Source: Cordylochernes scorpioides
Lineage: Eukaryota > Arthropoda > Arachnida > Pseudoscorpiones > Chernetidae
Reading direction: 5' to 3'
Assembly: GCA_030710605.1 (NCBI GenBank)
Contig: CP092863.1
Span: 138,106,994 to 138,170,993 of the forward strand
DNA length: 64,000 nt
The notes beneath the pieces were generated by a model. That model was not told the DNA's origin, searched no databases, and worked only from the letters and a program-made list of their open reading frames with translations. Both the position numbers and the translations under genes were made by a program. Of the stretch, positions 2,991-33,000 are shown piece by piece. How positions within the stretch are numbered: the stretch's first letter is position 1; every line of letters starts with the position of its first letter.

Positions 2991-3046
2991 TAAAAGATAC
3001 ATCTTTTATTAAAAATGTATTTCTGTTTAAAACCACATTACAGAAC

Positions 3047-3231
3047 ACAAGTTAATAAGACCAAATCCAAATAAATAGTGTATGAAGTTTCGGTAACAGC
3101 ATTGTTACCATCTGTCTGAATATTGTCTGAAGATGGTAACAACGCTGTTACCGAAACGTCATACACTATTTATTTGGAGATTTGGTCTTATTAACTTGTG
3201 TTTATAATCTATAATCCAAATTGTGCCTTAT
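3047..3231. mobile_element. Fold-back element with two hammerhead-like modules
   Basis: Inverted arms run from AATAAGACCAAATCC to the mirrored GGATTTGGTCTTATT, and the right end reads AATTGTGCCTTAT. Each arm, read outward from the centre, holds a hairpin GGTAACA-loop-TGTTACC followed by GAAAC. The right arm has CTGAAGA one base before the hairpin. Exact 13-bp direct repeats CACATTACAGAAC at 3034-3046 and 3232-3244 flank it. That length is typical of reverse-transcription insertion rather than a DNA transposon. Confidence 0.8.
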
Positions 3232-3529
3232 CACATTACAGAACGTATCGTTGGTAATAAAGAAAAAGCCATAACACCAGTTTTAGAAAATTCAGACCAT
3301 GGTCAACCTGTAACCATGGTTTCGGTATAAAATTATTGGTTTTAGTATTAATAGCAATGGCAATAATAATTCATTACCGTTTTAATATAACTTTTTTGAC
3401 CCCAAAAAAATAAGAAAATTAACTTATTTGCATAGTGGTAAAAATCATGTTCCACTAGATGGTGCTCTGCTATCTAAAATGCTCAGGTAGCGGTCAAAAT
3501 ATACCTTTTTTTTTTAAATGTAATATATA

Positions 3530-3706
3530 CAGTTAAACCTGTCTATAGCGCCTCCTCTTGGGACTCACCAAAATAGGGTGCTATAGAGAGAGGGTGCTAT
3601 AGACAGGTCACTTTTAATGTAAATAGCATCGTACTACGTATTTAAAATCGGGCTCTAAAGAGAGGAAGGCGCTATTTAGAGGGGGCGCTATAGACAGGTT
3701 TAACTG
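3530..3706. mobile_element. MITE, CAGTTAAACCTGTCTATAGCG ends (pogo/Tigger-like)
   Basis: A 177-bp near-palindrome with terminal inverted repeats starting CAGTTAAACCTGTCTATAGC, flanked by TA on both sides. CAGT termini with TA duplication are typical of pogo/Tigger-type MITEs. There is no ORF. Further copies are at 14063-14225 and 62389-62561. Confidence 0.8.
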
Positions 3707-4359
3707 TATATATATGACGTATTTTTCATAATTTTAATGCATTCTAAAAAGGAGAGCTTCTAGATTTTATTCTGATTAAAGAAAGTTACATAATAAAACT
3801 ATAGTAAGCTATTACAGATACATTTTCCCCCTATGTTCTGCTTATATGACAAATTATAGCCATAGTTATAGCCAAAGCTTCAGCATGAACATAAATAGTA
3901 AAAAAAAAAAAAAAACTTTTGATATCCTAAAGCATAATTCTTATGTACTTACCCTTTAACTTTCTTGATTCTTCTTCTTCTACTATTTTTCTTTCATATA
4001 CATAAATATATATATATATATATGCATATATGCAAAATTATGCATGTATATATGCAAAATTATATAAAGTTTTTTTTTTTTTTTTTAAGAATAAGCTTAT
4101 CAGTGTAGCATGTCTCCTGTTGATTTCACCAATTTTCCAGACAACTAATTAATTGCACAAAACTTAAGGAAGTTGTAATTTTTAGCATGTATTCTACCAT
4201 TTTTCTTTCATATATATATGTACATATATGCAAAATTATGTATGTATGTATATATGCAAAATTAGAGTTTTTTTTTTTTTTAAGAACAATCTCATCAGTG
4301 TAGCATGCTTCCTGTTGATTTCACCAATTGAATTGCACATTTTATTTCTCTTGTCTGTA

Positions 4360-5005
4360 CACTCATAGACAAAACTTAGGGAAGTTGTACCTTTTAGCAT
4401 GTATATCGGGATTCAGACAATAACTCTGGAAGATATTACAGTGACCTTTATTGAAGACATACGAGATAACCAAGTGTGAACCAAGCTTAAGGAAGTTGTA
4501 CCTTTCAGCATGTATATTGGGATTCAGACAATAACTCTGGAAGATATTACAGTGACCTTTATTGAAGACACACAAGATAACCAAGTGTGAACAAAACTTG
4601 AGGAAGTTGTAACTTTCAGCATGTATATTGGGATTGAGACAATAACTCTGAAAGATATTACAGTTACCTTTATTGAAGACACACAAGATAACCAAGTGTG
4701 AACAAAACTTGAGGAAGTTGTAACTTTCAGCATGTATATTGGGATTGAGACAATAACTCTGAAAGATATTACAGTTACCTTTATTGAAGACACACAAGAT
4801 AACCAAGTGTGAACAAAACTTGAGGAAGTTGTAACTTTCAGCATGTATATTGGGATTGAGACAATAACTCTGAAAGATATTACAGTTACCTTTATTGAAG
4901 ACACACGAGATAACCAAGTGTGAACAACCTGTCTCCTTCAGACAAAAAAATATGCAACTGGAGACATCATAGACTCTCAACTTCCTCAAGTTTTGTTCAT
5001 GAGTG
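4360..5005 (-). repeat. Array of about five 111-bp units inside a MITE
   Basis: The ends are inverted copies of CACTCATAGACAAAACTT. Between them about five 111-bp units repeat (for example 4601-4711 and 4712-4822). Because 111 is a multiple of three, one minus-strand frame stays open for 208 codons (4363-4989) as a 37-residue repeat. The frame has no recognisable domain and starts within the terminal repeat, so I read it as a by-product of the array and not a gene. Confidence 0.75.
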
Positions 5006-5341
5006 TGGATTTGAAAGTTTATTCACAAAGTGTATAGCTATATTACAAAAAAACTAATGGTTTACTTATTAACAAACCAATATATTAAAATTAGAAAAGG
5101 CATATCCTGACCATGATGGCACTCTGCCATCTAAAAAGTTCATGTGCTTGTGCTCAGGATATGCCTTTTCAAATTTTAATACCAACACCTGACCTTTTTT
5201 ATTTTAAAATTATTTATATATGGTAGATTAAACTGATGAAACCGCTGAGAGGGTTCACCACTGATGAGAGCCAGGACCTCCCATTAATTTTACCATTACA
5301 GTAAGGGTAGTTGAATTTGTTCAATTTTAAAAAAGAATCAT

Positions 5342-5508
5342 AAGGCACAATTTATATTATAGATTATAAACACAAGGTAATAACACCAAATCCAAATAAA
5401 TAAATAGTGTGTGACGTTTCGGTAACAGTGTTGTTACCATCTTCAGACAAAAGTACTGAATGTTATGGAACGCTTCACGATTTTGGGTGTTACCCTTGCG
5501 CAGGGGCC

Positions 5509-5542
<34 letters not shown>

Positions 5543-5659
5543 TTATGTACCGCCGAACAACCGAGTCATTCAGTACTTTTGTCTGAAGGTAGTAACAACA
5601 CTGTTACCGAAACATCACACACTATTTATTTATTTATTTGGTCTTATTACCTTGTGTTT
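5342..5659. mobile_element. Fold-back element with hammerhead-like arms carrying a U6 snRNA copy
   Basis: Left and right arms mirror each other (AATAACACCAAATCC and the complement, GTAACAGTGTTGTTAC hairpin, then CAAAAGTACTGAATG and CATTCAGTACTTTTG at the inner edges). The loop between the inner edges holds a U6 snRNA sequence. A 12-bp direct repeat AAAAAGAATCAT flanks the whole unit (5330-5341 and 5660-5671). Flanking sequence is an older repeat X copy, so the insertion boundaries are clear. Confidence 0.85.
5464..5565 (-). pseudogene. U6: U6 spliceosomal snRNA copy (probable retro-pseudogene)
   Basis: On the minus strand the sequence follows U6 snRNA for nearly its full length of about 102 nt. 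The spliceosome-critical ACAGAGA box and the following AGATTAGCATGGCCCCTGCG segment are intact, including the AGC triad, and GTGAAGCGTTCCATA is present near the 3' end. The 5' stem-loop has several changes, and the intramolecular stem-loop region differs (AAGGGTAACACCC). The terminal T run needed for Pol III termination is absent, since CCATA is followed directly by the element arm. It is therefore more likely an inserted cDNA copy than a working U6 gene. Confidence 0.85.
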
Positions 5660-5719
5660 AAAAAGAATCATACATGTCAATAATAGTTTTGAATTTTCAT
5701 AACAGATGGCGCTCTAATG

Positions 5720-8195
5720 CATCATAAATTATTTTTTTACAAACCAATGTATATGTTGTGATTAGGAATTTAAAAAAAAAAAGACATTTTCAACATTCGA
5801 TCAATTTTATTTTATCCAATCATCATTATATATATAAATTTTTATACATGAAATTGTCTTCAACTTTGGGCACTAAAATAGATTCTTCTCTCTTTTTTTC
5901 ATCATCTTGATTGAAAGGGTGGTTCACTATACCTCTAATCACTAGTAGCTTTGATTTTTGCCACACTACTCTCCTTTGCTAACTATTATTGGCGGGTTTA
6001 ATAATAGTTAATTTTTGTCCGGGAAATTGTCTGGAGAAATAAAACATTTGTGTTATATTTTTATACCATGCTATAGAGTAATTATGAGTAACCCTGAATA
6101 ATTGTAAATATTATAATAGTTATAATAAACATATTATATTTTTGAAAAATTCTTTTGGTCCAATATGTTAAAGGAGGCTATATGCAATTATAATTATATT
6201 TGCATATAGGATCATAATAGTGCGAATGAATATTGATAAATGCATAAGAATTAGTTTGAAAATAAAGGATTATTCCAAATATTTAGAGTTATATTAAGTA
6301 TAGTTCTTACAAATAAAAAAGATGTTGTTGTTAGACACTAGAGAAGAAAACTTACAAATAAAAATTGCACAAAAAAATTAGAGTGATTTAAAATTAGACG
6401 GTGGGGTGCGGCATCCCGGTAGGCTGGAATGAAATCTTTCAGCCCCCACAATATTTTTATAAAAATTTTCCAAATGCATTTCTATGGTAAGGGAATATCA
6501 ATGAAATTTATTCAATTATTCACTTTATTGCCTTTTAACTCAAAATTATATTTGTTGTTACAAATTTTATCTAAATATGTTTATAGATTAAAAAATATCT
6601 TCCTTTATAGAGATTTGACAACACAAAAAAAGTCTTCAAAAACAAAGATTTCAAATATCAAATTTCAGGGCAAAGAAAAAGATTAGTGGTATATAGCATG
6701 GTTTAAAAATATAATAAGAAAATACTTTTGGAGTGTGCGGTCAAAAGTAAAATATAGGATTTTTCTGTATTTAATGCTAAAAAATATACTTTTTTTTTAC
6801 ATACTATTTTCATTCTTTTACATTATATACCATCCTTCATAGCATTTTTAATACCCAATTTATCTATTCAAAGAGTATTGTATTGTTGATTTCATCCAAA
6901 ATTTTCTTAATTAAAAAAAAAAAAAAAACACTGAAAAAAAAAAAGGTAAAGTAGATGTGTAGCAAAACATCTAAAAAAAAAAAACTTTTTGTTTTTTTTT
7001 TACAAAAAAATAAATCTTTTTTTTACATATTTCCCATATTATTTTCACACACCAAAAAAAAAATTATAAGATTTTGTTTTTAAAAAAATAGATTTTTTTT
7101 TTTTTGCATTTCTGGTTTATTTATTTTGGAGCATTTTATTTTGGAAGGTAAATGGAGAAGAATATTTTCAAATTGACACAATAATAAAAAAATAATAACT
7201 AAAAAGATAGATAAGATAAAGTTGAATGTGGCACTTATATTTTTCTAATCTTTTTTTTTTAAACTTTTTTTTTTCATATAATTATAGGTTATATATATAA
7301 GAAGTAAGAGACACACACATAAAAAACATAAAAATAAAAGTGAAAAAGATTTGCGGACGGACTGTAGTTGATAATGATAATATATGATTAAAAAAGATGA
7401 TGATAAGATGATGATCCCACAACTATATTTAGAAAGAAATTAGCAAAAAAAAATGGAGAAAACAAAACAAAAAATATTTTTTTAAAGGCAAAAATACATT
7501 TGTGTTAAAATTTTACCCCAAAGTTATATACACAATGTAATTTTGGAATTTTTTTTTATATGTCTAAAAGAATAAACAATAAAAAATAAACATTATTCAT
7601 ATATGCATATATGATTTTTTTTTTTACTCCATCAAAAATATATATTCTTTTAAAATATATATTTAAAAGAAAAGTTTTCAGTTCTATTGTATTCTATAAT
7701 AGATTTGAGCTATGTTAAGTGTTTTATATCATATCAATATATTTTTTTTTAAGATGGCCACACATAAACAAATAAAGAAAAAGATGAAAAGGTTCTAAAG
7801 GCATATATATATTATCATTTTTCTTTCATTCTCTATATATAGAAATATCTATATTGATATATTACACAAGGACATAGCAATAGGCACATTTTTATATAAA
7901 TTCCAGGTCACAAAGTCTATTAAGTAAATTAATAGAATAATTGTAAAAAAGAAGAGTATTTTAGAAGAGAGAATAAGGAATACAGTTATATAGGTCATAT
8001 GTGGTTAGAATCTGTCATGGTTTCCATGTAACAGAAAGTGGACAATGTACTCAAGAGGATAAGCTATTAAGATACCGAGAAGAAGTCTCAAACGTCAATA
8101 TGTAAATAATAAACAAAATGGCTACCAATGATAAATATTGTAATCTAAGGTATAAAAAGTAAACATTCAAATGCAATATTACAGAGTTAAATGAT
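5720..8195. other. AT-rich stretch without recognisable genes
   Basis: Extremely A+T rich with long A and T runs (6900-7100 especially) and short ATATAT tracts. The only open frames are low-complexity K/I/F/N-rich ones. I see no gene or full repeat here. Confidence 0.7.
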
Positions 8196-8204
8196 AAAAG
8201 CACA

Positions 8205-8390
8205 ATTTGGATTATAGATTATAATACAAAGAAAATAAGACCTAATCCAAATAATTTGTGTGTGATATTTCGACAACAGCATTGTCATTTATTCTTTTTT
8301 TTCTGATGATGGTAACAATGCTGTTGCCGAAATGTCATACACTAATAAATTATTTGGATTAGGTCTTATTTTCTTGTATTATAGGGTTAA
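8205..8390. mobile_element. Diverged fold-back with hammerhead-like modules
   Basis: Arms AATAAGACCTAATCCAAATAA and its complement enclose paired hairpins (GGTAACAATGCTGTTGCC) followed by GAAATGTC. The right module reads CTGATGA, then T, then the stem. Flanking AGAGTTAAAT and AGGGTTAAAT look like a decayed target duplication. Confidence 0.65.
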
Positions 8391-8485
8391 ATTAAATTGG
8401 CGAAACTGCAGTTCTAAACAAAATGGCTACCAAGGATAAGTAAACTTAGTAACGGTATTAAAAGGAAAACAGTAAAATTCAATAT

Positions 8486-8600
8486 TACAATAGCATGGTA
8501 GATTAAATTGATGAAACCGCTAGAAAGGCTCACCATTGATAAGCCAAACCCTCCCATTAATTTAGCATTGCAGAATGAGCAGTAGAAAATTGTGGTAATT
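8486..8600. repeat. Repeat X fragment
   Basis: Matches the repeat X core (GATGAAACCGCTAGAAAGG, CCCTCCCATTAATTT) with several substitutions. The ends are not resolved. Confidence 0.55.
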
Positions 8601-9235
8601 GTAATCATTTTAGTTTAAAAAACAAAATAAAATTAAATTTGAAATACATAGAGAGTTGTCCACCTTAATAGAAAAATCATCCATGAAAAAAAATTAAAAA
8701 AATTATAGTAATATTAATCAGAAAAAAAGAGGGAAAAACCTACACAATTATATGGATTATAGATGAAAATTGAAAGATTATATGCAAATAAGTAATCCAA
8801 AAGATAATATTATGGTAACCATGTTGTTACTTGTCCCATATTGTTTTCTTATTGAAATCTTATTAGCATTGGAGAAATAACTCAATCATACACAGGACAA
8901 ATTGATTGAACTTATAAATGTAAACCACAAACACATATGACCTATATACCTGTACACAATTTTAAGGTTTAAAAAATTATCAAAATAACAATTTAACAGA
9001 ATTTTTGACCATTTCAATACACACAATGTTGAAATTGGAAGTGAAAAAAATCAATAATATCAAATAAATAACCAAAAGAAAAAGTGTGATAAAAAACATC
9101 TTGACTTTGCAAATTCTAACCAGGCATTCTAGCTTGAAGCAAATCTAGAAGCACATGGTATCTAGATTGTACTGAGCCTTTCTTTCCAAAACATTCTGCT
9201 AGAAACATAGGAAAAAAAAAACATCATTCAATTAA
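8600..9235. other. AT-rich gap
   Basis: No gene or complete element was recognised between the repeat X fragment and the Penelope-like fragment. Confidence 0.5.
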
Positions 9236-9526: not shown

Positions 9527-9529
9527 CTT

Positions 9530-10010: not shown

Positions 10011-10011
10011 C

Positions 10012-10290: not shown

Positions 10291-10299
10291 CATAATGGT

Positions 10300-12075: not shown

Positions 12076-12645
12076 ATTCTGATGTCCTCATTTCTCTTCC
12101 CCACCACATATTACCTCATATACATATATATGTAAATAAAAGGTAGCTTTTATTCATTCATTTATAAAAATTTGCATATTCTGCGCAAAGAATTGATGCA
12201 TTTAATGTACTTTTATATTAAAAACAAGAAGGGCCTTATTTGCATATACAGTAAAAATTTGCTGAAACAACTTCAATGGAACTGAACATTTGGTTCACTA
12301 TAGCCATATTTCAATATAACATTTTAGGTTCGTTATAAGGGTAGGTTCCCCTATTTTATTTTTGCCAGATTTTACTGTAGGTAAGCTTTATTTCTATTAG
12401 ATGAGGTACATATATTAGACCTGAATGGATTCTGTTACTTTTTTTCACAATTTAGACAGGTAATGTCAAGATACCCAGGAAGAAATATAGCTGGAAGAGA
12501 TATCTTGTGTACTGTCTAAATATCAAAAGTCAAATTCTTCAAAAAAAAAAAAAAAAAAACTTTTAAAACCCAACTTGCACTTTACAAAATAGAAAAAAAA
12601 AAGTCATTGATTACAATATTTTTAGAAAGTAACCTATATGCAAAT

Positions 12646-12791
12646 ACAAGGTAATAAGACCAAATCTAAATAAATTAATAGTGTGTGACGTTTCGGTAAC
12701 AACGCTGTTACTGAAAGGTCACACACTATTTATTTATTTGGATTTGGTCTTATTACCTTGTGTTTATAATCTATAATCCAAATTGTGCCTT
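12646..12791. mobile_element. Compact fold-back element with hammerhead-like arms
   Basis: A 146-bp copy in which the arms nearly touch: GTGTGTGACGTTTCGGTAAC then ACGCTGTTAC and CACACACTATT. It ends AATTGTGCCTT. A 14-bp perfect direct repeat ACCTATATGCAAAT flanks it (12632-12645 and 12792-12805). Confidence 0.85.
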
Positions 12792-12830
12792 ACCTATATG
12801 CAAATGTTTCCTTAAAACCATCAACAGAAT

Positions 12831-13035
12831 GATAAGGTACAATTTGGATTATAAATAAGAGGAATAAGGTAACAAGACCAAAGCCAATAAGTTGTGGACA
12901 AAGTTTTGGTAACATTCAGTACATTTATCTGAAAATGATGATAATACTGTTACCAAAAACGTTACACCAAACTTATTCCATTTTTTCTTGTTACTTTACA
13001 ATTCTAACATTGAATATTTGGATTTGGTCTAAATA
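12831..13035. mobile_element. Decayed fold-back of the same family
   Basis: GATAAGGTACAATTTGGATTA at the left, a central CTGAAAATGATGATAATACTGTTACC and GGATTTGGTCTAAATAC at the right. Both arms are substituted and the ribozyme-like core is lost. Confidence 0.55.
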
Positions 13036-13039
13036 CTTC

Positions 13040-14616: not shown

Positions 14617-17600
14617 CTGGGGAACACCAGCGGTGTGTTAGAAATACAGTCCAACTTTAATAAGGTATGATAGAACCTCCATGAGAGGACACACACACTA
14701 GAGGACACCTCTCTACAAAGGACAGTTTTCAATTTTACAAAATTACCATTTTTACTATTTAGCAACTCTCCGGTAAGAGGACACCACCTCTCTCTAAAGG
14801 ACACTTTGGCCTTGCAATTAGGTGTCCTTTACAGGGAGGTTCTACTGTACAATTTTTAAAAAAATTATTTGATAATCAAACAGTCACTACTATTTCTGGA
14901 TTCGCGAAATATGGAAATTCTCAGACCTTCTTACATGTCGTAGTGGACCATGCCACACGGTACGCGTGGGCATTTCCATCTCGGTCCACCAGCATTCTCA
15001 CCTATACCCAAGTAATTAAAAAGGTGATGGAGTTTGGTTCTCGGTAAAATTTCTCATTCAGTACTTTTGTTTGAAGATGGTAACAACGCTATTACCGAAA
15101 CGTCACACACTATTTATTTATTTGGATTTGGTCTTATTACCTTGTGTTTATAATCTATAATCCAAATTGTGCCTTATTAATCAAACAGTCGTGATATTGA
15201 AATATTTGGGCCTATTACAGAGGAAACAAACAAAAAACAATGAACAAATTAGAACTTATATTAAAAAATATATATTTTTTAAATTTACATATATTATTCT
15301 ACAGAGTTCATAAAATGTATATAAACAAAGTGGTTGATGTAAGAGAGTTAAATCATTTAGATCAGGAAACAATCGATGTCTCATTTCTGCAAAGTTTGTA
15401 CGGTCATAGATAAGATGAAAAGCAGTTTGTTCAGTACAATAAGGTACAATTATCATAGAATTTGTGTAATCTTTAAAAAAGTGATAAGAAACACAAGAGA
15501 GGTAATAAGACCAAATCCAAATAAATAAATAAATAGTGTGTGACGTTTCGGTAACAGCATTGTTATCATCATTCAGTACTTTTGTCTGAAGATGATAACA
15601 ACGCTGCTACCGAAACGTCACACACTATTTATTTATTTGGATTTGGTCTTATTACCTTGTGTTTATAGTCTACTAGCCGAATGACCCGGGCAACGCCCGT
15701 GTTTTACCCGATTGAATGTTTTTATTCAAATACTATTTGTTACAATTATAAATTGGCGCCTTATATAAATGCATATATTAGTTAATAACTATAGCCTATG
15801 TGCTTTATCTGTCTATGTACTGTTGGCTTCCGTAGGCGTCTCTTACTGGGAAAGAGAAAGAGAGGATTCCATTTGGTTATTATCTAATATATGCATTTAT
15901 TTAGGGAGCGACCCGCTCCAACACAATAGTTAAAAGGCGAGTGGGGAGGGGGGGGGGGGGGGGGGGGGGGGGCAAAGGTGGCGTGACCGTAGCCAACCAA
16001 TAGGAGGGCGCCATTCCAAAAAAAAAAGCAAACGGTGACAGAGTTGGTTGATTGATTAGGAGATGAGGAATGACGCTCGTAACTGTATATAGAATAATCC
16101 AAATTGTGCTTTATCAAGTGATAAGAAAGAACAGCACAATTTGGAGTATAGATTAGAAACACAAAGTAACAAGATCACTTTCAAATTGGTAAAACCATTG
16201 TCACTCGTGTCATTCTATACCCGTAGAAGGACGTCTTACCTGAAAACTTGTACCATCATTTTCTTATAAAAAAAGTTCTTCTCCCTGACTTGTGTGTTTT
16301 CTTCTATAGGGAATAGGAAAATTATCGTCGCCTTATATAATAAGGTACAATTTGGAGTAGAGATTAGAAAAACTCGAAGGTAAAAAGATCACTTCCAAAT
16401 TAATAATAAGGTATTTTAGAGCTATAGTAAAACCTTCCTAAGAACATTTATAAGGCACAATTTGGATTATAGATTATATAAAATTGAATGTCTGTTTGTC
16501 TGTGTGTACTCTATAGATTCAAAAACCGTACATCCAATCGCCGTGAAATTTTGGGATATTATTAGGCATATCCCCGGAAAGGTTTACGAAAAATAATATC
16601 TTGAATATCTTTAATATCCTTAGAGTTATTTGCAGATTTGTAGCTCTAACTCGCAAGCAGCGCCACCTTGCGACGGAGATAGGCTTAGGTCTGCCCTCCA
16701 CCCCGCCCCCCGTCAGTCCAAGTTCCCACCGACCAATCAGAGGGATCAAGAGCCCCCACCCCCGTCCGGCCGCCGGCCAATCAGAGGGATCAAGAGGTCC
16801 TGGCGCGCGGGGGGCGGGTGACCTCCGGGAACTACGTCCATCTTCCATAAACGACCATGATTTTATTCAACTTATCGAGTATTTTTCAAGGGACCGGGAA
16901 AATATGTTCACTAGATAAAACGATGATTTTGTAATGTAGAAAATTAGGAAAGACAAAATTCAGGATGACACGGCACACAGGGACCGGGAAAAAATAATCA
17001 CTTTATCGAGAGATTCACGACCATGATTTTATTCAACTTATCGAGTATTTTTCAAGGGACCGGGAAAATATGTTCACTAGATAAAACGATGATTTTGTAA
17101 TGTAGAAAATTAGGAAAGACAAAATTCAGGATGACACGGCACACAGGGACCGGGAAAAAATAATCACTTTATCGAGAGATTCACGACCATGATTTTATTC
17201 AACTTATCGAGTATTTTTCAAGGGACCGGGAAAATATGTTCACTAGATAAAACGATGATTTTGTAATGTAGAAAATTATGAAAGACAAAATTCAGGATGA
17301 CACGGCACACAGGGACCGGGAAAAAATGTTCACTTTATCGAGAGATTCAAATTTACGAGTTTCAAATTATCAAAATATATCTTTTTTTTTTATAAGTTTA
17401 TAGAGAATTGTTTTAACAAATGTTCGTTAGACAAACCTTTACTCGGGTAAAACCTCGGGCGAAGCCGGGTACGTCCGCTAGTAGATTATAAACACAAGGT
17501 ATTAAGACCAAATCCAAATAAATAAATATTGTGTGATGTTTCGGTAACAGCGTTGTTCATTATCACAGGGTTTGCGGATTTCGATAAATTACAAAAAAGT

Positions 17601-18000: not shown

Positions 18001-21000
18001 AGGTAATTCTAACTCCGCCTTTGCTGGTCCCAAGCCTGGATGAAAAGGAGGGGGAGCAGTAACAAGCTCGCTAAAAAAACTGGGCTCAGCTGGCTCGGCT
18101 GATAGTACCCTGTAAGGGCTCCTAATGTTAGGAGCGGCTGCACATGGCGTCTGTTCCTCATGTCAGAGACGGCCATTTCTTTTGGAGCTAAGTCGGCCTG
18201 CCATTGAGTAGTGCTTCCAGTCTTAATGACAAAGGCAGATGCAGCCTACTTCACCCAGTCATGATCTCAAGCATTACAAGCTTGATACCCTAATATGATT
18301 GAGTCGAGATAAGAAAGAAGAAGAAGAGATAGTCAGTCTTTATTTACATATTTTGGATGAACACAGTGTAATAGTATGATTTTAATTTATATAGAGAGGG
18401 AGGTCAAAAGAAGACTTACCAAAAAGTCTAAAAATGACAAACTGCATCCCAAGTGCAAAGGCTCTTTCCTCTTGATTAACTGACCTGGAACACCCACAGC
18501 ATGGATGAAACATATACAGTACAGAGTGTACTCTCACAAGTTATAATCCAAAGAGAATTACAATATTATTAATTTTCTGAAAATAAAGCAATCCATACTT
18601 AAATCATTAGATAGTAAAAAGGCATATATTGGATTGAATAAATGCGGCGCTGAGTTTGTGTATACAAAAATGTAATGCCTTGATAAAGGTTGGTGTTTAG
18701 CCAACCGAAATATTGACAAATAAATATTTTACTCAATCCAATATATGTCTTTTTACAATCTAATGTTATTAATATATATGAAATAAATATATGAGGGGTT
18801 GGTGGGAGGATGGTCTGAACCGTTGGTTTTTGACCGCTATAACCCGGGTTCGATTCCCGCATTGGGCACTTTTTTTTTTTTGTGATAAAAAGGCTCCAAT
18901 GGCTCCCGATTCTTGCAAAAGTCCAACCCCACCAGCGAGTACAAGTAACCAAACAGGGCTCTGGCATATTTGTAAGTACAAAAGTTGAACTGCTTTTCAC
19001 ATGTGTAGACACGTGGTGCATTTACAGTAAAAGCAGTTGCTAACTACCCACCATGATTTTCTTGGACTGTACCACATGTACTAGGGATAATTTAAAAAAA
19101 AGAATGTATGTATGTAGTTAGTTACCTGAGGGTGATCATCAACAGCGGCATCTGTGTGATGGACACCACCAAGGTCATGATAAATAGCAGCACCATGAAG
19201 GGCAAGATGGCGGAGCACATGTTTGGACATGGCCCCGTTGTGGCCAGAGGCACCGCTCTCACATCGGCAGCTATGCCTCGGGGATGGTGGGTTCCATTGG
19301 CCATGATGCAGGCACAGTTCCAGTAGTTTTGGACCTGGTTTACACTGGAGTTGGAACAACATCCCTTTGTAGGAGTACAGTAATACATGAGAGAACACAT
19401 TCGCTAGAGGGCACTTCTCCTTAAAGGACACTTTGGCTCTGTAACTAGTTGTTGTCCTTTACAAATAGGTAGTTCTACTGTAGCTGCTCTCTGGTAAGAG
19501 GACACCTCTCCCTAAAGGACACTTTGACTCTGCAACTAGGTGTTGTCCTTTACAAATAGGTAGTTCTACTGTAACTGCTCTCTGGTAAGAGGACACTTAT
19601 CCTTAAAGGACACTTTGGCTCTGTAACTGCTCTCTGGTAAGAGGACACCTCTCCCTAAAGGACACTTTGGCTCTGCAACTAGGTGTTGTCCTTTACAAAT
19701 AGGTAGTTCTACTGTAGCTGCTCTCTGGTAAGAGGACACCTCTCCCTAAAGGACACTTTGGCTCTGTAACTAGTTGTTGTCCTTTACAAATAGGTAGTTC
19801 TACTGTAGCTGCTCTCTGGTAAGAGGACACCTCTCCCTAAAGGACACTTTGACTCTGCAACTAGGTGTTGTCCTTTACAAATAGGTAGTTCTACTGTAAC
19901 TGCTCTCTGGTAAGAGGACACTTATCCCTAAAGGACACTTTGACTCTGCAACTAGGTGTTGTCCTTTACAAATAGGTAGTTCTACTGTAACTGCTCTCTG
20001 GTAAGAGGACACTTATCCCTAAAGGACACTTTGGCTCTGCAACTAGGTGTTGTCCTTTACAGAGAGGTTCTACTGTAGCTGCTCTCTGGTAGGAGGACAC
20101 TTCTCCCTAAAGGACACTTTGGCTCTGCAACTAAGTGTTGTCCTTTACAGAGAGGTAGTTCTACTGTAGCAATTCTCTACCTATTAGTATCTTTGTTAGA
20201 AACAGTAGAACCTCTTTAATTCAACCAACTATAATTCAACACCTACTTTAATTCAATCCAAAATTCAGATTAGATTCTTCAGGCTGGATTTATAATTATG
20301 ATTAAATATATCCACTACACATCCTTTCCTATTAGTTATTTTTGATGTTTTGGTGACCCTCTGTCACCTTTTCAAATAAATTGGCAGGAAGATAAACACT
20401 ATAAGATTGATTTTCTTCTTTATAAGATTTATTTTCCTAAAGTGTTCCTGGATCATGATGCCATGATCAACGAAAGCTACACCCCATTCCATGAGCTCAT
20501 GGAATTCGTGTAATCTTTACACAAGGGGATAAGAAACGACAACAACAGATTCATTTTCCTTGAAAAAGGTGACAGCCAGTTACTGAAAAGTTGTAAATAA
20601 ACAATTGAAAACATGTTAGGATGTATAAAATAATGATACATTCTAGATAGAGGATTGACCAAGTACTGTACCATTGGGTTGTTGGCATCCTCAGTCCTTT
20701 GACAGCCGGCATGGCAGGGGGAGAAGTAGGTGATGCCATTACGGCCACAGACAGGTTCAAGATCATTAGGACTACAGCGGCATCCCATGTTGCAGTCTGC
20801 GGTCAGGTTGACCTGAAATGTGGTGTCGAACCCCGTGCTGTAACATAACATACATAGTACACCATTGTTGATAATACAGACATTGTTGACAACATACTTA
20901 TTGTAGTAAGGCAGCGTAGCTCCGGCCATCTTGATGTTATCACAGCCCAGGAAGTAGAGAAGTGTGTAGAGCCCCATACAAATGATGTTGAAGAACATCA

Positions 21001-24000
21001 CAAACTGGATGGCACCTGCATAGAAAGTAAACACACTTGTTACAGAAAGAATTATAAATATATATATGTGGTATTTTGATGGGTTTCTGTAAATTTTTGG
21101 AGTGCTAGAATAGCTTCATTGTGGGGATTTAAGTGTAGAGTGATTCAACGTCGAAAGATACCATACGGCTATTATTAGAAATTGAAAGGTTTCTGATCGT
21201 TTTTGCAGCTACTGTAGAATTAGGGATAGTGTGGGGAAGTAATTTCTGGAGGGGAGAGATGATGGATGAAATAAATTTAGTGAGGGGGTAAAGAGGAGAA
21301 CCAGCATAGGAAACAATCGGACGTAAAGGTGTGTTTGGCTTATGTACTTTTGGGAGGCCATAGAAGTTTGGTAAATTCTTGTCCTCAGCCTTTAAATTTC
21401 AAAAGCTTTTTTGTCTAATTTATGTGAACGTATGATTTTATAATAAAATATTATAATAAAAGTATTATAATAAGTATTATAATAAAATAATATGTGGTAT
21501 TGTAAGCACTATGCAGTCATGGGGCCAAGTGGTTTCAGGCATCAATGGGTAACACAAAAGATGAAGCGTGTTGGATGTCACCTAAGAGAGAGGCATGTAG
21601 AATTAGGTATAAATACTTATATACCAGAAGAGGCACCTCTCCCTTTAAAAATGCATTCAGTTTATCACCCCAGTACAAAATGCAATAGCAATGATAAAAA
21701 AAAAAAAAGTCACTACACCAGTTTTAAAAAATTGAGACTAAAAAAACCAGTAACTTGTATATACAATGCTGCAAGTGTTATTGAAGGAGTTGAAAGCCAT
21801 TACCTTTAGGTGTGAGCTGGAACTTCTTTAGCAAGTAGCCTCCCATGAAGATACCAATACAGGCTCCAGGGATAGCAATACCACCTGTGCCACAACAATA
21901 ACACTTAATTCTACAATGGAATAATAAGTACAGTGAGAGAAGGATAAGGTGGCAATATTTGGAATAGAGATTAAGAAACATCAAGTAACAGGATCCTATC
22001 CAAATAAGAAAAAAGTGAACAGATATCTTCTTCTTCTTTCTTATCTCCAATCATATTAGGGTATCAAGCTTGTAGAGCTTGAGAATGATGTGAACAGATA
22101 TGAAGGGAAGCTGTGAAATAAGCAGAATAACTATGACAAAATAAGAAGATGTGGATCAAGAGAAGATCAAAAGAGGAGTGAAAAACTTCTTTAAAAATAA
22201 TGAATTCAAATGACTAGATTGATAGACCTCAGCAAGAGTTCCTCTCCAGAGATATGAAGGAGCTGCATTTGTATTTATGTTAAGTCAGCAGCAAAAGTGT
22301 CTGCTTCTATTTTAGGAACGGCCTCAAATTACAAGCAAAAAGTCAAATTTTCACCAAAATGTGTCTGGAACATGTGATCAAGGAAAGCTGCACCACTATA
22401 CCCCAATCCATGAGTGGACTCATGGAAACATTGTGTAATCTTTGCACAAGAAGATAAGTAACAACAACAAAGTGAAAAGTTACCAGTGAAGATATTGGCC
22501 TGGGATTTGCCGATAGAGAACTGGGTCTCCAGGTACTTGGGCAGGAAGATGACAAAGCCAGACACGATAGAGAGCTCCAGAGCGGAGCCCAGGCACGTCA
22601 GCATGTAGATAGGATTAGTGAGTAGCCTCCACATGGATAGGGGGATATCTGCTCACATGTGCATGGTTAGAATATCAGGTCAACTTCACATGGAAACACA
22701 ATCACTCCAATACAGTGGAACCAACTTCCATGAGAGGGAAACTATCACTAGAGGACACCTCTCTACAAAGAACACCTTTTTCATCTCAAAAATGACATTT
22801 TTACTAATCAGAAACTTTCTGGTAAGAGGATACCTTTCCCTAAAGGACACTTTGGCTCTGTAACTAGGTGTTGTCCTTTACAGAGAGGTAGTTCTACTGT
22901 AGCAACTCTCTGGTAAGAGGACATCTATTCCTAAAGGACACTTTGGCTCTGTAACTAGGTGTTGTCCTTTACAGAGAGGTAGTTCTACTGTAGCTGCTCT
23001 CTGGTAAGAGGACACTTCTCCCTAAAGGACACTTTGGATCTGTAACTAGGTGTTGTCCTTTACAGAGAGGTAGTTCTACTGTAGCAACTCTACAGTAAGA
23101 GGAAACCTTTCCCTAAAGAATACTTTGGCTCTGTAACTAGGTGTTGTCCTTTACATAGAGGTAGTTCTACTGTAGCTGCTCTCTGGTAAGAGGACATCTA
23201 TTCCTAAAGGACACTTTGGCTCTGTAACTAGGTGTTGTCCTTTACAGAGAGGTAGTTCTACTGTAGCTGCTCTCTGGTAAGAGGACACCTCTCCCTAAAG
23301 GACACTTTGGATCTGTAACTAGGTGTTGTCCTTTACAGAGAGGTAGTTCTACTGTAGCTGCTCTCTGGTAAGAGGACACCTCTCCCTAAAGGACACTTTG
23401 GATCTGTAACTAGGTGTTGTCCTTTACAGAGAGGTAGTTCTACTGTAGCTGCTCTCTGGTAAGAGGACACCTCTCCCTAAAGGACACTTTGGATCTGTAA
23501 CTAGGTGTTGTCCTTTACAGAGAGGTAGTTCTACTGTAGCTGCTCTCTGGTAAGAGGACACATCTCCCTAAAGGACACTTTGGATCTGTAACTAGGTGTT
23601 GTCCTTTACAGAAAGGTAGTTCTACTGTAGCAACTCTCTGGTAAGAGGACATCTCTCTTTAAAGGACACTTTGGCTATGCAACTAGGTGTTGTCCTTTAC
23701 AGAGAGGTAGCTCTACTGTACCATGAAATATTCCAATACATCAAGTAGAGATGTTCTCTTACATAACCAAGAGAAAGGGTTCAATGCCCCCACACCAGTT
23801 ACAGTCTGTATTTTGGCAGTACCTACCTTTGATATCCAAGGTAATAAGATACCAAATCCAAACAAATAAATAGTGTGTGACATTTTGGTAACAGCATTGT
23901 TAACAACATACTGATGTTAGAACCATCTGATAATAGTAACAACGCTGTTACTAAAACACCACAAACTATTTATTTATTTAGATTTGGTGTCTTATTACCT

Positions 24001-27000
24001 TGTGTTATTTTTGTTTTTCTTGATGAGGACATGGAATTTTGATCGAGACATTGAGAAAATAAAAATAATTCTCTAGCCGAAGTGGCTCTTTTATTTTAAA
24101 GAACTCTCCAGGCAACCTCTGTCTTTAAGATAATCTAAATTTCTATTAATCCTACTAAATATTGTTTTTTTTTTAGTAAGAGGAACTGCCTGTTCCTGAA
24201 TGCTTGTATATAAGTTGATGTCAAGCCCCTTTTCCCCCAATTTGATACATTGTAAATAACATTGCTGATATTGTTACTATTACTGTTATTCCTGTAAATA
24301 CCCTCTTCTACTCGGAGAATCTGTATAAGATCAAAATGTCTTAATAAAGCTTTGTTGTTGTTATACCTTGTGTTTCTAATTTATAATCCACACAGATTGT
24401 ACCATACCTTTGATATCCTTTCCATATTGGATCTGTTTCTTGGCCTGGTCTATGGAGGAAGAGCCGTGATGGTGGTGATTGTGATGGTGGTAGTCCTCGC
24501 TGGCGCTGCGCTGGTGGGTGTGTCTGCACACTGCAGTGCTGGTGGTGCCTCCTCCATAGTCTCTTTTCTCCTCCCACAGCACCTTCTCTCGGTCATGTCT
24601 CAGGTACTTGGGGAAGGCAAAGTAAGGAATGGACACCTGGTACAAACATATCTCTCTTAGTCCAATCTTCTCACAAGTATCTCCGCAAACTATACACTCA
24701 TGGACAGAACTTAAGGAATGATAAGGCACAATTTGGATTATAGATTATAAACATAAGGTAATAAGACCAAATTCAAATAAATAAATAGTGTGTGACATTT
24801 CGGTAACAATGCTGTTACTGAAACGTCACACATTATTCATTTATTTGGATTTGGTCTTATTACATTGTGTTTAGAACTTAAGGAAGTGGGAAGTCTTTAA
24901 TGTCGCCAGTCGTCTATTTTTTTGAAGGAGACAGAGGTAATTTTGTTTACACTTGGTTATCTTATGTATTTAATAAAGGTCACTGTGTATCAAATTGCTT
25001 TCATTGTTATTGTCTTAATCCTGAAATACATGCTAAAAGGTACAACTTCCTTTTGTCCACGAGTAGTTCATTTTGGAGAGAAACATTCCATCATTTAGTG
25101 CAACAAGTAAGGAAGGAATTGAGTAGCCGATGGTTTCAGACAACATAGGAAGAAGAGACTCACCAGTAGCAGCAGGATCCCAAAGATGACAAAGCCAAGC
25201 CACCAGGCTCCCACCCAGCGAGGATGTCCAGGGTAGATGCCAGTCATATGAGGGATGGATTGGAACATAGCATCCTCGTGGATAGACAATAGATAACCTC
25301 CTAGCAGGAAGCCACACACCAGACCGAAGGCCACCATACTGTAGATACAGCCTGTAGACAACACCCACATCTTAATCCTTTTTCCTCTCAACAACAACAT
25401 ACACAGATTAGCTACAGCCTGTAGATGACACTCACAACACATCTTAATCCTTTCTTCCTCTCACAACACACACATAGATTGTTAAAACAATGTTATGATT
25501 CATTATCACAGATTTACAGATTTTGAGAAATTCTAAAAAATAACCCGCAACTTTTTTATTTACTTGATTAAAGAAGCTTTCAGGCAAGCTTGTTGTCCTT
25601 CATAGAGAGGTAGTTCTACTGTAGCAACTCTCTGGTAAGAGGACACCTCTCTCTAAAGGACACTTTGGCTCTGTAACTAGGTGTTGTCCTTTACAGAGAG
25701 GTAGTTCTACTGTTGCAACTCTCTGGTAAGAGGACACCTCTCCCTAAAGGACACTTTGGCTCTGTAACTAGGTGTTGTCCTTTACAGAGAGGTAGTTTTA
25801 CTGTTCTGCTCTCTCGTGAGAGGACACCTCTCCCTAAAGGACACTTAGGTTCTGGAACTAGATGTCCTTTACATACAGGTTCTACTCTGCACCTCTTAAT
25901 GAGGACACTCAGTTGAGAATGACATCATTCTCTCAGTGAGAACAAATCACTAAAGAATGGAAATTTGCATAAATATTGGGTCATTGAGAGGCCTAACAAA
26001 ACACCCCATAATTATTTCTAACTGGGGCACTGGAGAACAATGAAGTCTTTGTGTTCTTTAAACACTTTCCCATAGGAACACTGGTGATTATATATTTTTA
26101 AAAAAGTGTAATTAAAATGAACAAAACCTTTTTTTTTTTTTAAACTAGGTAGCTACAATGGGTGTCGATTAAGAGCCAAGGTGTGTATGCTCATATAAAC
26201 AAAATCAAGGTCTGTTGTTGTTGTTTCTTATCCCCTTGTGTAAAGATTACTCAAATTCCATGAGTTCATGCTCCTCGAGCAAAAGGCGTCTACTTCCATG
26301 TTAGGAACGGCCTTAAACTACAGGCAAAGTCAGACTTTCACCAAAGTGTGCCTAGATCATGGTGCCATGATCAACGAAAGCTGCACCCCTACACCCCATT
26401 CCAAATCAAGGTCTTGCTACAGTAACACATTTTAAAAATGTTTATGACTCACAACCTAAGGACCTATGTGAAAATATTGTTGTTGTGGAGAGTTCGAAAA
26501 TGATAAAGCAAAATTTGGATTATGAACACAAGGTAATAAGACCAAATCCAAATAAATAAATAGTGTATGATGTTTCAGGTAACAGTCCATCACTTTTGTC
26601 TGAAGATGGTAACAACGCTGTTACCAAAACGATTTGACTGTATTGACTCATCCATTGATGAGCTATCTCTACTCATCCCCAGCAGACACCATCAACAAGC
26701 TCTACAAGCTTGATACCCTGATATGATTGTTGAGTGGAGATAAGAAAGATGTTTTGGGTACCACATCATTGACTGTATTGACTCATCCATTGATGAGCTA
26801 GCTCTACTCATCCCCAGCAGACACCATCAAAAAGCTCTACAAGCTTGATACCCTGATATGATTGTTGAGTGGAGATAAGAAAGAAGATGTTTTGGGTACC
26901 ACATCATTAACTGTATTGACTCATCTATTGATGAGATCTATTTATCCCCAGAAAACACCATCAACAAGCTCTACAAGCTTGATACCCTGATATGATTGTT

Positions 27001-30000
27001 GAGTGGAGATAAGAAAGTAGATGTTTTGGGTACCACATCATTGACTGTATTGACTCATCCATTGATGAGCTCTACTCATCCCCAGCACAGACACCATCAA
27101 CAAGCTCTACAAGCTTGATACCCTGATTAGATTGTTGAGTGGAGATAAGAAAGAAAAAGGGGAGGATAAGATTGACCAAATATTTGGTATATATCAATAC
27201 ATCTATCATCATTCAACAAGAATACTTCATCAATGAAGGTTTCAGCTGAATTCTAAACATAGAAGATTCCTTATTGGTCAGCATTATCTAGTTACCTTTG
27301 TACTTTACTGTCAAAATATATATTTTTTTATTCTTCAGAACTTATATACAGTAAGACCTCTCTATAAAGGACAGCTATTTGCAAAGCCAAAGTGTCCTTT
27401 AGAGACAGGTGTCTTCTTACCAGAGAGTTACTAAATGGTAAACATGGTAATTTTGTCAATGAAAGGCAGAGAGGTGTCCTCTAGTGAGAGTGTCCTTTCA
27501 TGGAGTATGTTCTACTGTAACAGGGTGAGGGTTGTGGTAAGTGCTACTCACCAATATACATGGAAGAACTGTCCTTCTTGACATGGTCGTCAATGTAGGT
27601 GGTCCCCAAGGTGAATATGGGGGATCCCCCGCAGCCAATCAGCACCTGAGCCAGCATGAACAGTAGGATGTACAGGACATTGGAGGAGGTGCCCTCGTTA
27701 CAGGCTGTAGGGTCAGCCTCCAGAGCTGGGCTGTTCATGAAGTGCCTGTCACATGTTCCAGTACCATTCAGTATGTGACGTTCAACCAACCAGCTAATAG
27801 AGATGGAAATTTTGCTGGAAGGATATTATGATATATATATATATATGTAAAAATAGCACAAATGTGATATTGTACTTGGATAAGGTGCATAAATTATGAA
27901 ACACAAAAAGGCTTCTCCTTATCGTGCAACTGAAAGTTGCTGATGGTTGCTGAAAGTTGGCCAATTCTGGAATAATTAAAAATCAACGAGAATAGTTGAT
28001 ATTTATTCCAATAGATGGCGCAAGCCATCAGCAACTTTTAGTTGCACGATAAGGAGAAGCCTTTTTGTTTTTCATTATTTATGCACCTTATCCCAGTACA
28101 ATTTCACCTTTGTACTCTTTTATTATATAGTTTTGTGTTCTCACATACTTCTGGCCTTAACTACCTGTTTCATGATTTTATAGGATGTCTGAATGACCAG
28201 TTTTTTTGGTCGTTGAGGTAAAGCTTGCACCACGCTGATGAGGGCCAACAGCCCGAAACGCGTACGTGGTTAGCTTTTCTTGATTAATCAAGAATATATA
28301 TTTCAGGAAGAGAGTGGGGAGCCGATGCAACCACACTAAAATTAACTTACACATCTCTAATTAGACCTATCCTGGAATATGGATATCAAATCTATGGTAC
28401 AGCATCTGAAACAAATCTGAAATCACTGGAAAGGATACAACTATGTGCAGCTAGAATTATTACAGGTCTTCGAAATACCTGCCCTAATGATATTGTACTT
28501 TACGAGGCAGACATTATGCCCTTAAAGGATAGAAGAAGCTACAATCTGCCAAAATATATAAACAAAATCAAGAGTTATGGAAACAAACACAGAACTTCCA
28601 AGTACATACTTAATTGGGAATCCAATTTAAGACTCAAAAAAGAAGGCCCTCTACACCTGGCCAATAGAAATGAATTTTTAAAATATAAAGTGGAAAAAAA
28701 TTATTTAGCAGAAAAAATTTCTCCATGCAAGCCACTACAAAATGTTATTTTTAATGCCACTTTAAATGAACCCACCAACAAACAATACCAAAATCCAGAA
28801 TACTTAAAACAATTATCATTAGAAATAATTAATAACATTCCTAAAAATGCAATAACTATTTATACCGATGGTAGCAGAGACGAGCTAGGACACACTGGCA
28901 GTGGCTGTCTCATCAAAACCACAAATGGCATTGAGAAAATGAACAGAAGAAACCCAGATTTTTGCTCAGTCTTCAGATCAGAACTTATAGCCATCTATGA
29001 AGCCTTAAAATCCATCAGAAATACTAATTATCAAGATATTTGGATTCTTACTGATAGTAGAAGTGCCATACAACACTTGAGTCACACAGGGGAACTCAGA
29101 GACAAAGTAAGCAGGAACATAATTGGTTATCTCCAAAAACTCTCAAAAACCTCAAAAATTCACCTTCAATGGATACCCTCACACGTTGGCATTGAAGGCA
29201 ATGAAGCTGCTGATGTGCTAGCGAAAAAAGGCACAAAAGAACTCTTGCCACAGAAAAATAAACTTACTTTTGAAGAAATAGAAACAATAGCCAAAACAAA
29301 AATAAACAAGAACTGGAGGATCCCACCTAAGCACAGTTGGTACAGTGGAGTGAACCCAGGAGGAGCTCTGAACATCAGAAATAGACAGCATCAAACAACA
29401 CTAACAAGATTTAGAACAGGCCATCTCAAGCCATTGAAGATAGAAAATAATAACAAAATTTATCCCACTTGCCCAAAATGTAGTTTGGTACCTGCAGCTC
29501 CAGAACATATTTTGGCTTGCATTAGATGCACTAAACAGGACCTTTGGGAGAGGCCGCTGCTCATCATAAAACAGCTCGAGGAGCATGAACTCATGGAATT
29601 CGTGTAATCTTTACACAAGGGGATAAGAAACAACAACAACAACAACAACAGAATTGGTATTTGGCCAATTCTGGAATAATTAAAAATCAACGAGAATAGT
29701 TGATATTTATTCCGATAGATGGCGTAAGCCATCAGCAACTTTCAGTTGCATGATAAGGAAATGTCTTTTTCTTAATATATATTTTTATTTTATCTTAATT
29801 TATTTGGAAATTTGCAGCATATGTATAATATTTAGAATCAAAGAAAACAAGATTCACTGATATATATAAAAATGAAGGGCACCATTCTTGTCAAAATAAA
29901 CACTAAAATCATAGTCGATGGACGAGTGGGTAACACCCTCGATTCCCGACAGTCATGAACCGGGATTGAAACCCACGTTAACATTTTGTTTAATATGTGA

Positions 30001-33000
30001 ATAACCTTCATATATTATTCACTGTTTCAATTATCATGAACTAGGTTGTTCTTGTTGAGGGGTACCTAATAAAGTGGTTTTTGGGGAAACACTAAAACTA
30101 AGTAACATCTATTGACCATCTCCGCAAACTAATGGACTTGAGGTGGTGACAAAGCCACAACACCAGTTTGACAAACTGAGAAATGTCCACCTGGAAACCA
30201 TGGTTTCAGGCTAATGGCCCTCATCAGTTCAGGGCACATTATTGACTGTTTTGACTCATCCATTGATGAGCTCTACTCTTTCCCGGCAGACACCATCAAA
30301 AATCTCAAGCTTTACAAGCTTGATACCTTAATATGAATGAGTGGAGATAAGATAAGAAAGAAGATCAGTTCAGGGCAAACTTTATTCCATGATATCCACA
30401 AGGGATCAAATGAAATCTTCAGAGTTTTCCAAAGAGGTGTTTAGCTGGTAAACATCTAGATGGTGCTTAGCTTTAGCTTCTTTTATATTGGGAGAGGAAC
30501 TTTTCATATTTAGATATCAATATCCTACCAGAAAAATTTCCATCTATATTTTGGTTATAGATTTGGCCTCTAGCTGATTTACCAGCTCTCTTTGACAAAT
30601 TCTGAAGATATCATTTTATCCCTTGTGGATCTCTTGAAATCAAAATCTGGCTCTGGATTAACGAGAGCAATTAGCTTAGTCTTCAAGTGAGTGCATCTCA
30701 GTTTGCCAAAAAAAAAAAAAAAAAGCTGATGTTGTGGCTTTGTCACCGACCCGAATCTACTAATTCTATGGCCAAAATATAGATGGACTGATGGGAGCAA
30801 TTAACCTGAAACTATGGTCTTCAATTGGACGCATCCCAATTCTGGTGTTGTGGCTTTGTTACTGACCTGCATCCACTAGTTTTCTGAAATGGTCAATAGA
30901 TGATACTTAGATGGAAATTTTGCTGGGAGGATATTGATCTAAAGAAACAAAGGTTGCCTCTCCCGTCAAAATAGACGTCAAAACCAGACACCATCTATTG
31001 ACCATCGCCGCAAACTAGCGGCTTCAGGTTGGTGACAAAGCCACAACCTGGTTTTGACATCTATTTTGATGGGAGAGGCGACCTTTGTCTCTTTAGGTGA
31101 TATTTAGTTTTAAGCATCTATTCTGGCAGAAGAGGCAAGCTTTATTATTATAGATCAAACAACTCTTAAAAGTCGGTGGACGAGTGGGTAACACGCTCTA
31201 TTCCCGACAGTCATGAACCGGGATTGAATCCCGCGTTAACATTTTGTTTTAGTATGTGAATATTCATTGTTGCAATTATCACAAACTAGGTTGCTCTTGT
31301 TGAGTGGTACCTAATAAAGTGATTTTGGAACCGGATCCAAGTCTCACCCTGTGTGTCTGGAGGGGAACTGTAGCTCTCCAGCTGCCGGGATGGGAGGGAC
31401 ATAGCACGTGTTCTCATCCAGGTAGTGCCTCAGGGAGCTGTTGCGATGGTCGCCCCCCAGGCGGGTGTAGACAGTATCAATGAGGTAGGGTAGGGCAAAC
31501 ACCATGGAACCAACTCCCATCACAATGATGCCTGCACAGTACAACAATCAATATCTACAGGTCTACAGTTACAAGAGTCAACAATGTAATAACACCAAAT
31601 CCAAATAAATAAATAGTGTGTGACATCGGTGTTGTTACCATCTTCAGTCAAAAGTACTGAAATGTATTTCAGTATCCAAAATCCATTTCAGTACTTTTGT
31701 CTGAAGATGGTAACAACGCTGAAATGTCACACACTATTTATTTATTTGGATTTGGTCTTATTACCTTGTGTTTATAATCTATAATTCAAATTGTGCCTTA
31801 TCACAAGAGTCAACCTACCTTTGCCAATCCAGATGGGGATATGGCGGTGAGTCCCGAGGTAGCTGACAAATATAATGGTGAGGAGGTTGCCCAGCTCGAA
31901 GGTACTGGCGATTCCCCCTGACACCCTGCTGGGGATGTCAAACCTCTTCTCTATGGTGGTGATCACACTGCACATGTTGGTAACACTTAACACAGGAAAA
32001 CATTTAAAATATTTATTGATACATTCATAATATTTACCTCAAAAATAATAATATAAACTTATCTTACTCATTATATTTCTCTTTTTTTCTTCATTATTTT
32101 TATATAACACATTCCCATATTGAAAACACTTTCTTGTAATACAAGAAAATAAGACCTAATCCAAATATTTTAATAGTGTATGACATTTCGGCAACAGCAT
32201 TGTCACCATCATAAGACAAAAGAATGAATGATTAATTTATTATATGAAAGAATAATTTATTCATTTATTCTTTTGTCTGATGATGGTGACAATGCTGTTG
32301 CCGAAACGTCACACACTATTAAATTATTTGGATTAGGTATTTTTTTTTCTTGTATCTATAATCTATAATCCAAATTGTACTTTATCACTTTCTTGTAACA
32401 AAAGGAGATGTTGTTATTATCTTCAACAGTGTTACAGAAACACACACACACAAAAACCTTTATTAAGACACACAGGTCTTACAGAGGATTCTCTTTGGGG
32501 TTACAAGACGGAGAAACCTATGAAAGTGGGAAATATACAAAGGGGTAAAAATGAAGAAAGATTATATACACATGATAAATATATACAGATTATTATTTGA
32601 ATGATCCTATGGAAAAAAAGAATATGGATTTGGAAAAAAAAATGTTTGTGTTACAGAAACATATCACAAACATTTCATTAATTTGGTCTCTTGTTACCTT
32701 AACTCTGACATTGCTTAGGCCTATTATGGAACTAACTGCCATTCTGATGAGATACTAAAGAATACTGATGTTACTATATAAAATATCACTTTATAACAAA
32801 ATTGATACAGCATATTTACGCAAGTTTGGCCTTAACTACCCATTTCTTGGTTTCTCAAGAAGCCTCTGGGACCAAAAATCTTTTTGGTTACAGTGGTACA
32901 GGCTACTCCACGCTGACGAGCACCAACAGCGCAAAACGCGTTCGTGGATGGCTTTTCTTGATTTATCAAGAAATTGGGTTGGCCAAATATCAGGGAAGAG

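Follow-up and report, generated by a model that had tools for sequence, protein, structure and literature searches.

What kind of element are the small fold-back repeats scattered through a 64,000-nucleotide stretch of the Cordylochernes scorpioides genome (contig CP092863.1, positions 138,106,994 to 138,170,993 of the forward strand; hereafter the window)? A preliminary description of the window proposed that they are inserted by reverse transcription and held a retroposon with inverted ribozyme-like arms to be outside the standard classes. The first proposal is judged right; the arms are common to an element with reverse transcriptase (RT) and GIY-YIG domains. The second is overstated, as inverted pseudo-LTRs (pLTRs; LTR, long terminal repeat), a tail, target-site duplications (TSDs), and a hammerhead motif have all been described for Penelope-like elements (PLEs). 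The fold-back elements are read here as leader-only insertions of a PLE, with a rough probability of 0.85. Each arm is a pLTR, which is the leader preceding the PLE frame, and the family belongs to a known class; it is neither a miniature inverted-repeat transposable element (MITE) nor a new class.

Fold-back copies in the window

A BLAST search of the window with the six elements of the preliminary description shows further copies, and the set then tested comprises 17 candidate copies or fragments, more than that description had given. The arms are ~95–125 bp long, point outward, and are numbered on a 125-nt reference in which position 1 is at CATTCAG and position 125 is the tail end. The tail, TATAATCTATAATCCAAATTGTGCCTTATCA, is ~30 nt long and stands at one end of an element only, an asymmetry overlooked earlier. 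It is one-sided because the outer ends of the two arms differ, lying at ~88–95 in one arm and ~118–125 in the other among the window copies. Inner ends and filler vary among copies, and the centres consist of short filler, upstream leader, or, in the copy at 5342, a U6 small nuclear RNA (snRNA). The features are as follows.

3034–3244, forward strand: inverted pLTR pair (3047–3231), tail at the right; 13-bp TSD at 3034–3046 and 3232–3244, CACATTACAGAAC
5330–5671, reverse strand: inverted pLTR pair (5342–5659), tail at the low end; 12-bp TSD at 5330–5341 and 5660–5671
5459–5561, reverse strand: near-complete U6 snRNA at the centre of the pair 5342–5659 (Rfam RF00026, 89.5 bits, E 1.4e-21)
8193–8376, reverse strand: inverted pLTR pair of the divergent subfamily B; degraded TSD of 16 bp with 2 mismatches
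12632–12805, forward strand: short pair (12646–12791) whose centre is one stem II hairpin; 14-bp TSD
14873–15190, forward strand: insertion (14886–15177) of ~168 bp of other sequence followed by one pLTR with tail; 13-bp TSD, TAATCAAACAGTC
15479–16128, forward strand: pair (15492–16115) split by a nested repeat at ~15673–16089; 13-bp TSD, AAGTGATAAGAAA
16450–17557, reverse strand: one-armed copy interrupted by a nested element that has an 8-bp TSD, AGATTATA; own TSD not found
23837–24006, forward strand: inverted pair with the tail on neither side; no TSD found
24706–24885, reverse strand: short pair (24719–24872) with stem II at its centre; 13-bp TSD
26501–26631, reverse strand: truncated pair; no TSD found
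31571–31814, forward strand: inverted pLTR pair (31583–31802); 12-bp TSD
32127–32398, forward strand: inverted pLTR pair (32140–32385) of subfamily B; 13-bp TSD; hammerhead-like module at 32277–32310 with CTGATGA
34754–34852, forward strand: truncated pair of subfamily B; 9-bp repeat near the ends only

The U6 snRNA has the same orientation as the tail-bearing arm of its copy. A pattern for the U6–pLTR junction finds the window copy as its sole exact match in the genome, in a search blind to diverged copies. A degenerate U6-like sequence at 56500–56547 is not within any arm pair. The filler of the insertion at 14886–15177 weakly resembles integrase (Pfam rve, E 0.18). The element nested in the one-armed copy spans ~16480–17481, ends in CTAGT, is bordered by the apparent 8-bp duplication, and has a relative at 42096–42900. 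Exons of an OATP-type gene (organic anion transporter, with OATP and Kazal domains) lie at 20477–32038, and by eye several pLTR copies stand between them.

A Penelope-like partner in the genome

The source assembly (2.62 Gb in 24 contigs) was queried with two window copies. Of the first-look candidates, 40 of 569 were scored for the copy at 12646 and 40 of 1,970 for that at 5342. The resulting cluster set comprises 34 loci and the window; L001 and L009, which are the window itself, were excluded, as were L011 and L032, apparent duplicates of L010 and L031. Arms also occur at three places, in two of five arbitrary 6-kb stretches, which corresponds to ~1 per 10 kb with a very wide error. The exact tail pattern has no match in viral and genome contig collections, from which the window's own genome may have been excluded.

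A Penelope-like partner with common arms, which the preliminary description had suggested seeking, was found in this genome (L069, L070, and L071). PLE-like frames adjoining an arm were first seen at L016 and L020. The RT piece of L016, used as a genome query, gives 12,024 candidates, and all 150 that were scored match at E 1e-61 or better. An arm match lies within ~3.3 kb at 27 of 30 RT loci (L039–L068), covering merely 26–27 nt at L040 and L068; L047, L058, and L059 have none.

The open frame of L071 (2898–5465) encodes 855 aa if read from a GTG in the tail; the first ATG, ~17 nt past the tail, gives 846 aa. Two direct arms flank the frame, 2780–2908 (with tail) and 5604–5708. Scanned alone, L071:3900–4859 matches RVT_1 at 35.0 bits (cut-off 29.6), and L071:5115–5420, C-terminal to the RT, matches GIY-YIG at 25.7 bits (cut-off 22.6). 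GIY-YIG in the L070 copy scores 21.0 bits, under the cut-off, and the best PDB profile match of the PLE RT is a retron-type RT (E 0.053). A frame opening at the ATG of stem II (M V T T L L P K R) was considered and rejected, as it meets a stop in the tail in window copies and the long frame of L071 instead begins after the tail.

L070 carries a head-to-head pair of 846-aa frames in an insertion of ~6.2 kb with a 13-bp TSD, TTCCTTATGTTTT, and the tail on one side; the two PLE copies have 99.8% identity over 3,090 bp. Whole PLEs paired in this way, with one tail and a TSD, link the short copies to the way in which the PLE itself inserts. A second, diverged Penelope-like RT is represented in the window by a fragment at 21129–21398 on the reverse strand, which aligns over 88 aa with the L071 protein at 43% identity; this fragment has no Pfam match at E up to 1 and no RT match in PDB.

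In the cluster set, 90 clusters comprise 23 with one arm, 55 with two, and 12 that are larger. Two-arm clusters have head-to-head arms in 49 of 55 cases and exactly one tail in 40 of the 45 with both ends classable. Arms classed as tail-less have their outer ends at 82–104.

Target-site duplications

The six duplications claimed in the preliminary description are exact at its coordinates (13, 12, 14, 13, 12, and 13 bp, in order from 3047 to 32385), with 13 bp an alternative reading for the copy at 5342. Exact TSDs of 12–14 bp occur in 7 of the 17 window candidates, among them the split copy 15492–16115. An eighth, TAATCAAACAGTC, previously missed, lies at 14873–14885 and 15178–15190, upstream of the one-armed copy at 15054. 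The window control used random position pairs with a 3-bp jitter, after removal of the 51-bp satellite and with other tandem arrays retained; exact matches of at least 12 bp arose in 22 of 2,752 trials, a figure inflated by the tandem arrays. Among the loci, an exact TSD of at least 12 bp is found in 27 of 90 clusters vs 1 of 502 mismatched end pairs. Eight further window copies or fragments have no TSD of at least 11 bp, and such matches arose in 21 of 150 control probes. Near 16340 there is an exact match of 11 bp, which lies inside a copy and was left uncounted.

Duplication length does vary, as claimed, though less than claimed: among 32 detected TSDs of at least 9 bp, 17 have a length of 13 bp and 5 of 12 bp. 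The TSDs of the sampled copies are not mostly of 2–3, 8, or 9 bp, the outcome that the preliminary description had named as evidence against its view.

The hammerhead-like module

The ribozyme-like module reported for the arms is present and consists of CTGANGA, one T, a 7-bp hairpin, and GAAA.

3127–3160, forward strand: hammerhead-like module CTGAAGA T GGTAACAACGCTGTTACC GAAACGTC, from a motif scan

Sites begin at 3127, 8303, and 32277 on the forward strand and at 5446 on the reverse strand; at 8303 the base after GAAA is T instead of C. With the stem relaxed to at least 4 bp, the scan gives 9 sites, where a Markov control gives 0.65 per 64 kb. CTGANGA, GAAA, and TH are kept in 40 of 43 core-spanning arms at the RT loci, and the first four core bases, G8, and A9 are identical in all 43. 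N7, the position left free in the hammerhead, is A in 38 of these arms and T in 5. Stem II is maintained via G-U pairs in subfamily B. The type of the extra base that separates A9 from stem II does not vary, and a viroid hammerhead with an extra residue at this position is known.

Two other repeats carry similar sequences. At 28219–28284 on the forward strand, immediately upstream of a LINE (long interspersed nuclear element) fragment, lies a fuller hammerhead-like sequence, CCACG CTGATGA GGGC..GCCC GAAAC GCGTA CGTGG, which scores 24.6 bits against Rfam Hammerhead_HH9 (gathering threshold 52). At 30190–30240 on the reverse strand, a further repeat has CTGATGA, a short stem, and GAAAC.

Origin of the inverted pairs

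How would a leader be inserted as an inverted pair? Priming from both target strands is preferred over snap-back, with about even confidence. The GIY-YIG enzyme would cut the target with a ~13-bp stagger. On the leader RNA, reverse transcription would start at the tail site when primed by one target strand and ~30 nt upstream when primed by the other, and both complementary DNAs (cDNAs) would extend towards the RNA 5′ end, often halting at CATTCAG. The cDNAs would then be joined head to head via microhomology, the self-complementary stem II, or filler, which in one case would be U6 snRNA. Copies would be short and leader-only because the start sites sit in the 5′ leader, and the two classes of outer end agree with the published account in which two RT start sites delimit the tail (PMC11167929). 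CATTCAG is read as the RNA 5′ end; the sequence continues upstream of it in some copies (L010, L016, L020, and L028), so it is not the sole 5′ end.

The 44 one-tail pairs have 37 distinct junctions, and both arms end at most 4 nt from CATTCAG in 18 of them; inner ends of the tail-bearing arm are biased through the choice of query. In seven A-subfamily copies, changes from the consensus common to both arms of a copy number 9 vs a mean of 3.6, a count reached by 53 of 5,040 permutations. Such an excess is expected if one source gave both arms at insertion. Mean arm identity in the A subfamily is 0.91 within a copy, slightly above the 0.89–0.90 between copies. Somewhat tentatively, the short pairs may represent a genome-scale footprint of both-strand PLE integration, in which a ~13-bp stagger leaves two 3′ ends, strand-specific start sites make the one-sided tail a rule and not an option, and fillers, including U6, record copying past the RNA end.

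In snap-back, which is plausible if rather less probable, a single strand primes reverse transcription of the leader; the end of the cDNA then pairs back on its own sequence, stem II being one possible place, and is extended into an inverted arm. Self-priming is the mode preferred for Adineta vaga, with palindromes as the argument (PMC3846280). At L070 a near-perfect palindrome of 3.1 kb has a centre of only ~12 nt, and the junction (25, 26, −17) recurs 4 times among the 44; this palindrome and the recurrent stem II junction suit snap-back equally. A folded-back cDNA is expected to reach the tail end or target DNA, whereas the second arm is mostly ~30 nt shorter and ends near the second start site. 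U6-type fillers, and pairs of CATTCAG-ended arms with unrelated bases between them, are not simple fold-backs.

A retrozyme origin, in which hammerhead cleavage of tandem leader RNA yields small circles that are reverse transcribed while the PLE supplies only the enzyme, is improbable. L014:1497–2008 does hold direct tandem leader units of 118–119 bp beside an inverted one, inside a 15-bp TSD. This is a single locus, however, the unit ends are CATTCAG and the tail rather than the predicted cut after GTC, and stems I and III are incomplete.

A short interspersed nuclear element (SINE) mobilized by a LINE and ending 3′ in the shared tail would account for the conserved 3′ tail, the variable 5′ ends, and a TSD length in the LINE range. 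It is rejected as very improbable, since the tail belongs to the leader of a PLE frame; the sole LINE fragment examined (28288–29607) does not end in the tail, and no genome-wide search for a tail-sharing LINE was made.

The least probable origin of all is a MITE or fold-back DNA transposon mobilized by a transposase, to which the small size, inverted arms, and many copies might point. It is rejected because the arms recur in a relative with RT and GIY-YIG, the tail is one-sided, the centres vary, the TSDs are mostly 13 bp, and no arm match lies near the transposase frame at 335–1372 or the DDE_3 fragment at 53653–54333. A transposase-bearing relative with the same ends, the other outcome that the preliminary description had set against itself, was not seen in the sample, and no separate genome-wide transposase search was made.

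Besides the palindrome and the recurrent junction, several results weigh against the leader-only reading or the both-strand scheme. Genome loci were picked by likeness to two window copies, which biases the sampling, and L002 and L006 have a common TSD, so that one event was probably counted twice. No TSD of at least 12 bp is present in 63 of 90 clusters; decay, truncation, and wrongly merged neighbours (e.g., 12642–12967) likely account for these. Among the 45 classed clusters, 3 have no tail (one is the split copy at 15483) and 2 have two. The whole L071 frame matches neither RVT_1 nor GIY-YIG at E up to 1. Pairing in the tail-region stem is kept in 90.5% of cells vs 89.5% in shuffles (61 of 500), and neither this stem nor stem II shows covariation above shuffles. 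The tail stem is present, by eye, in 10 of 14 minimum-energy folds, and leader folding gives no signal (z −0.08). Rfam has no hammerhead match in the arms at E up to 10, and this result, together with covariation not above shuffles, is why the module is called hammerhead-like.

Relation to known elements

Features described for Penelope elements are inverted pLTRs, one of which has a 31-bp tail, together with TSDs, junction palindromes, and captured sequence between the pLTRs (PMC3846280). The hammerhead motif is known in PLEs; in vitro, a PLE protein has been shown to extend both strands of the target, and two RT start sites bound the tail (PMC11167929).

The Penelope of Adineta vaga resembles the present family in its head-to-head inverted pLTRs, optional 31-bp tail on one of them, frames of ~840 aa, partial tandems, TSDs, junction palindromes, and captured sequence between pLTRs. 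It differs in TSD length (8–10 bp vs mostly 13 here), in pLTR length (181–218 bp vs arms of ~95–125 bp), and in copy number, with few copies there and frequent pairs free of open reading frames (ORFs) here. The word "hammerhead" is absent from the accessible part of that text (PMC3846280, on which all of this comparison draws).

Poseidon PAc of Anolis carolinensis shares with the present family RT and GIY-YIG, a tail between two RT start sites, and hammerhead stems I and II near the pLTR–ORF border, and its protein extends both strands in vitro. Its frame starts at stem II, whereas that of L071 starts ~17 nt past the tail. Its hammerhead cleavage has been demonstrated (PMC11167929), whereas the module here is known from sequence, with no stem I longer than 3 bp seen by eye.

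Animal retrozymes are likewise non-autonomous repeats, with type I hammerheads and TSDs longer than those of plant retrozymes (PMC7229834); unlike them, the present copies are mostly inverted pairs, with a module that lacks an Rfam hammerhead match.

In L1 twin priming, both cut strands prime on the RNA and give rise to inverted copies. The enzyme class differs here, there is no poly-A, and two start regions recur.

The mostly 13-bp TSD, the frequency of ORF-less pairs, and the U6 capture are apparently new. No report of abundant ORF-less inverted pLTR pairs or of PLE-captured U6 was found in the open-access literature, with most subscription journals outside the search.

Other features of the window

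An open Tc1-type transposase frame (HTH_Tnp_Tc3_2, DDE_3) lies on the forward strand at 335–1372. An array of ~93 copies of a 51-bp tandem unit, with long open frames on both strands, occupies 47248–51987. Further inverted-repeat families are present at 2850–2960, 5090–5175, and 27863–28108.

Significance

The mode of PLE insertion and the origin of the inverted pLTRs and optional tail are unsettled between self-priming (PMC3846280) and both-strand extension (PMC11167929). The insertions described here are short (150–320 bp), frequent, and bounded by clean TSDs, so that start sites, stagger, joins, and template jumps can be counted from sequence. Such counts make the self-priming and both-strand models testable, and the copies serve as an unusually clear record of insertion. 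They also advise caution, as fold-back repeats that are readily classed as MITEs may be by-products of PLEs.

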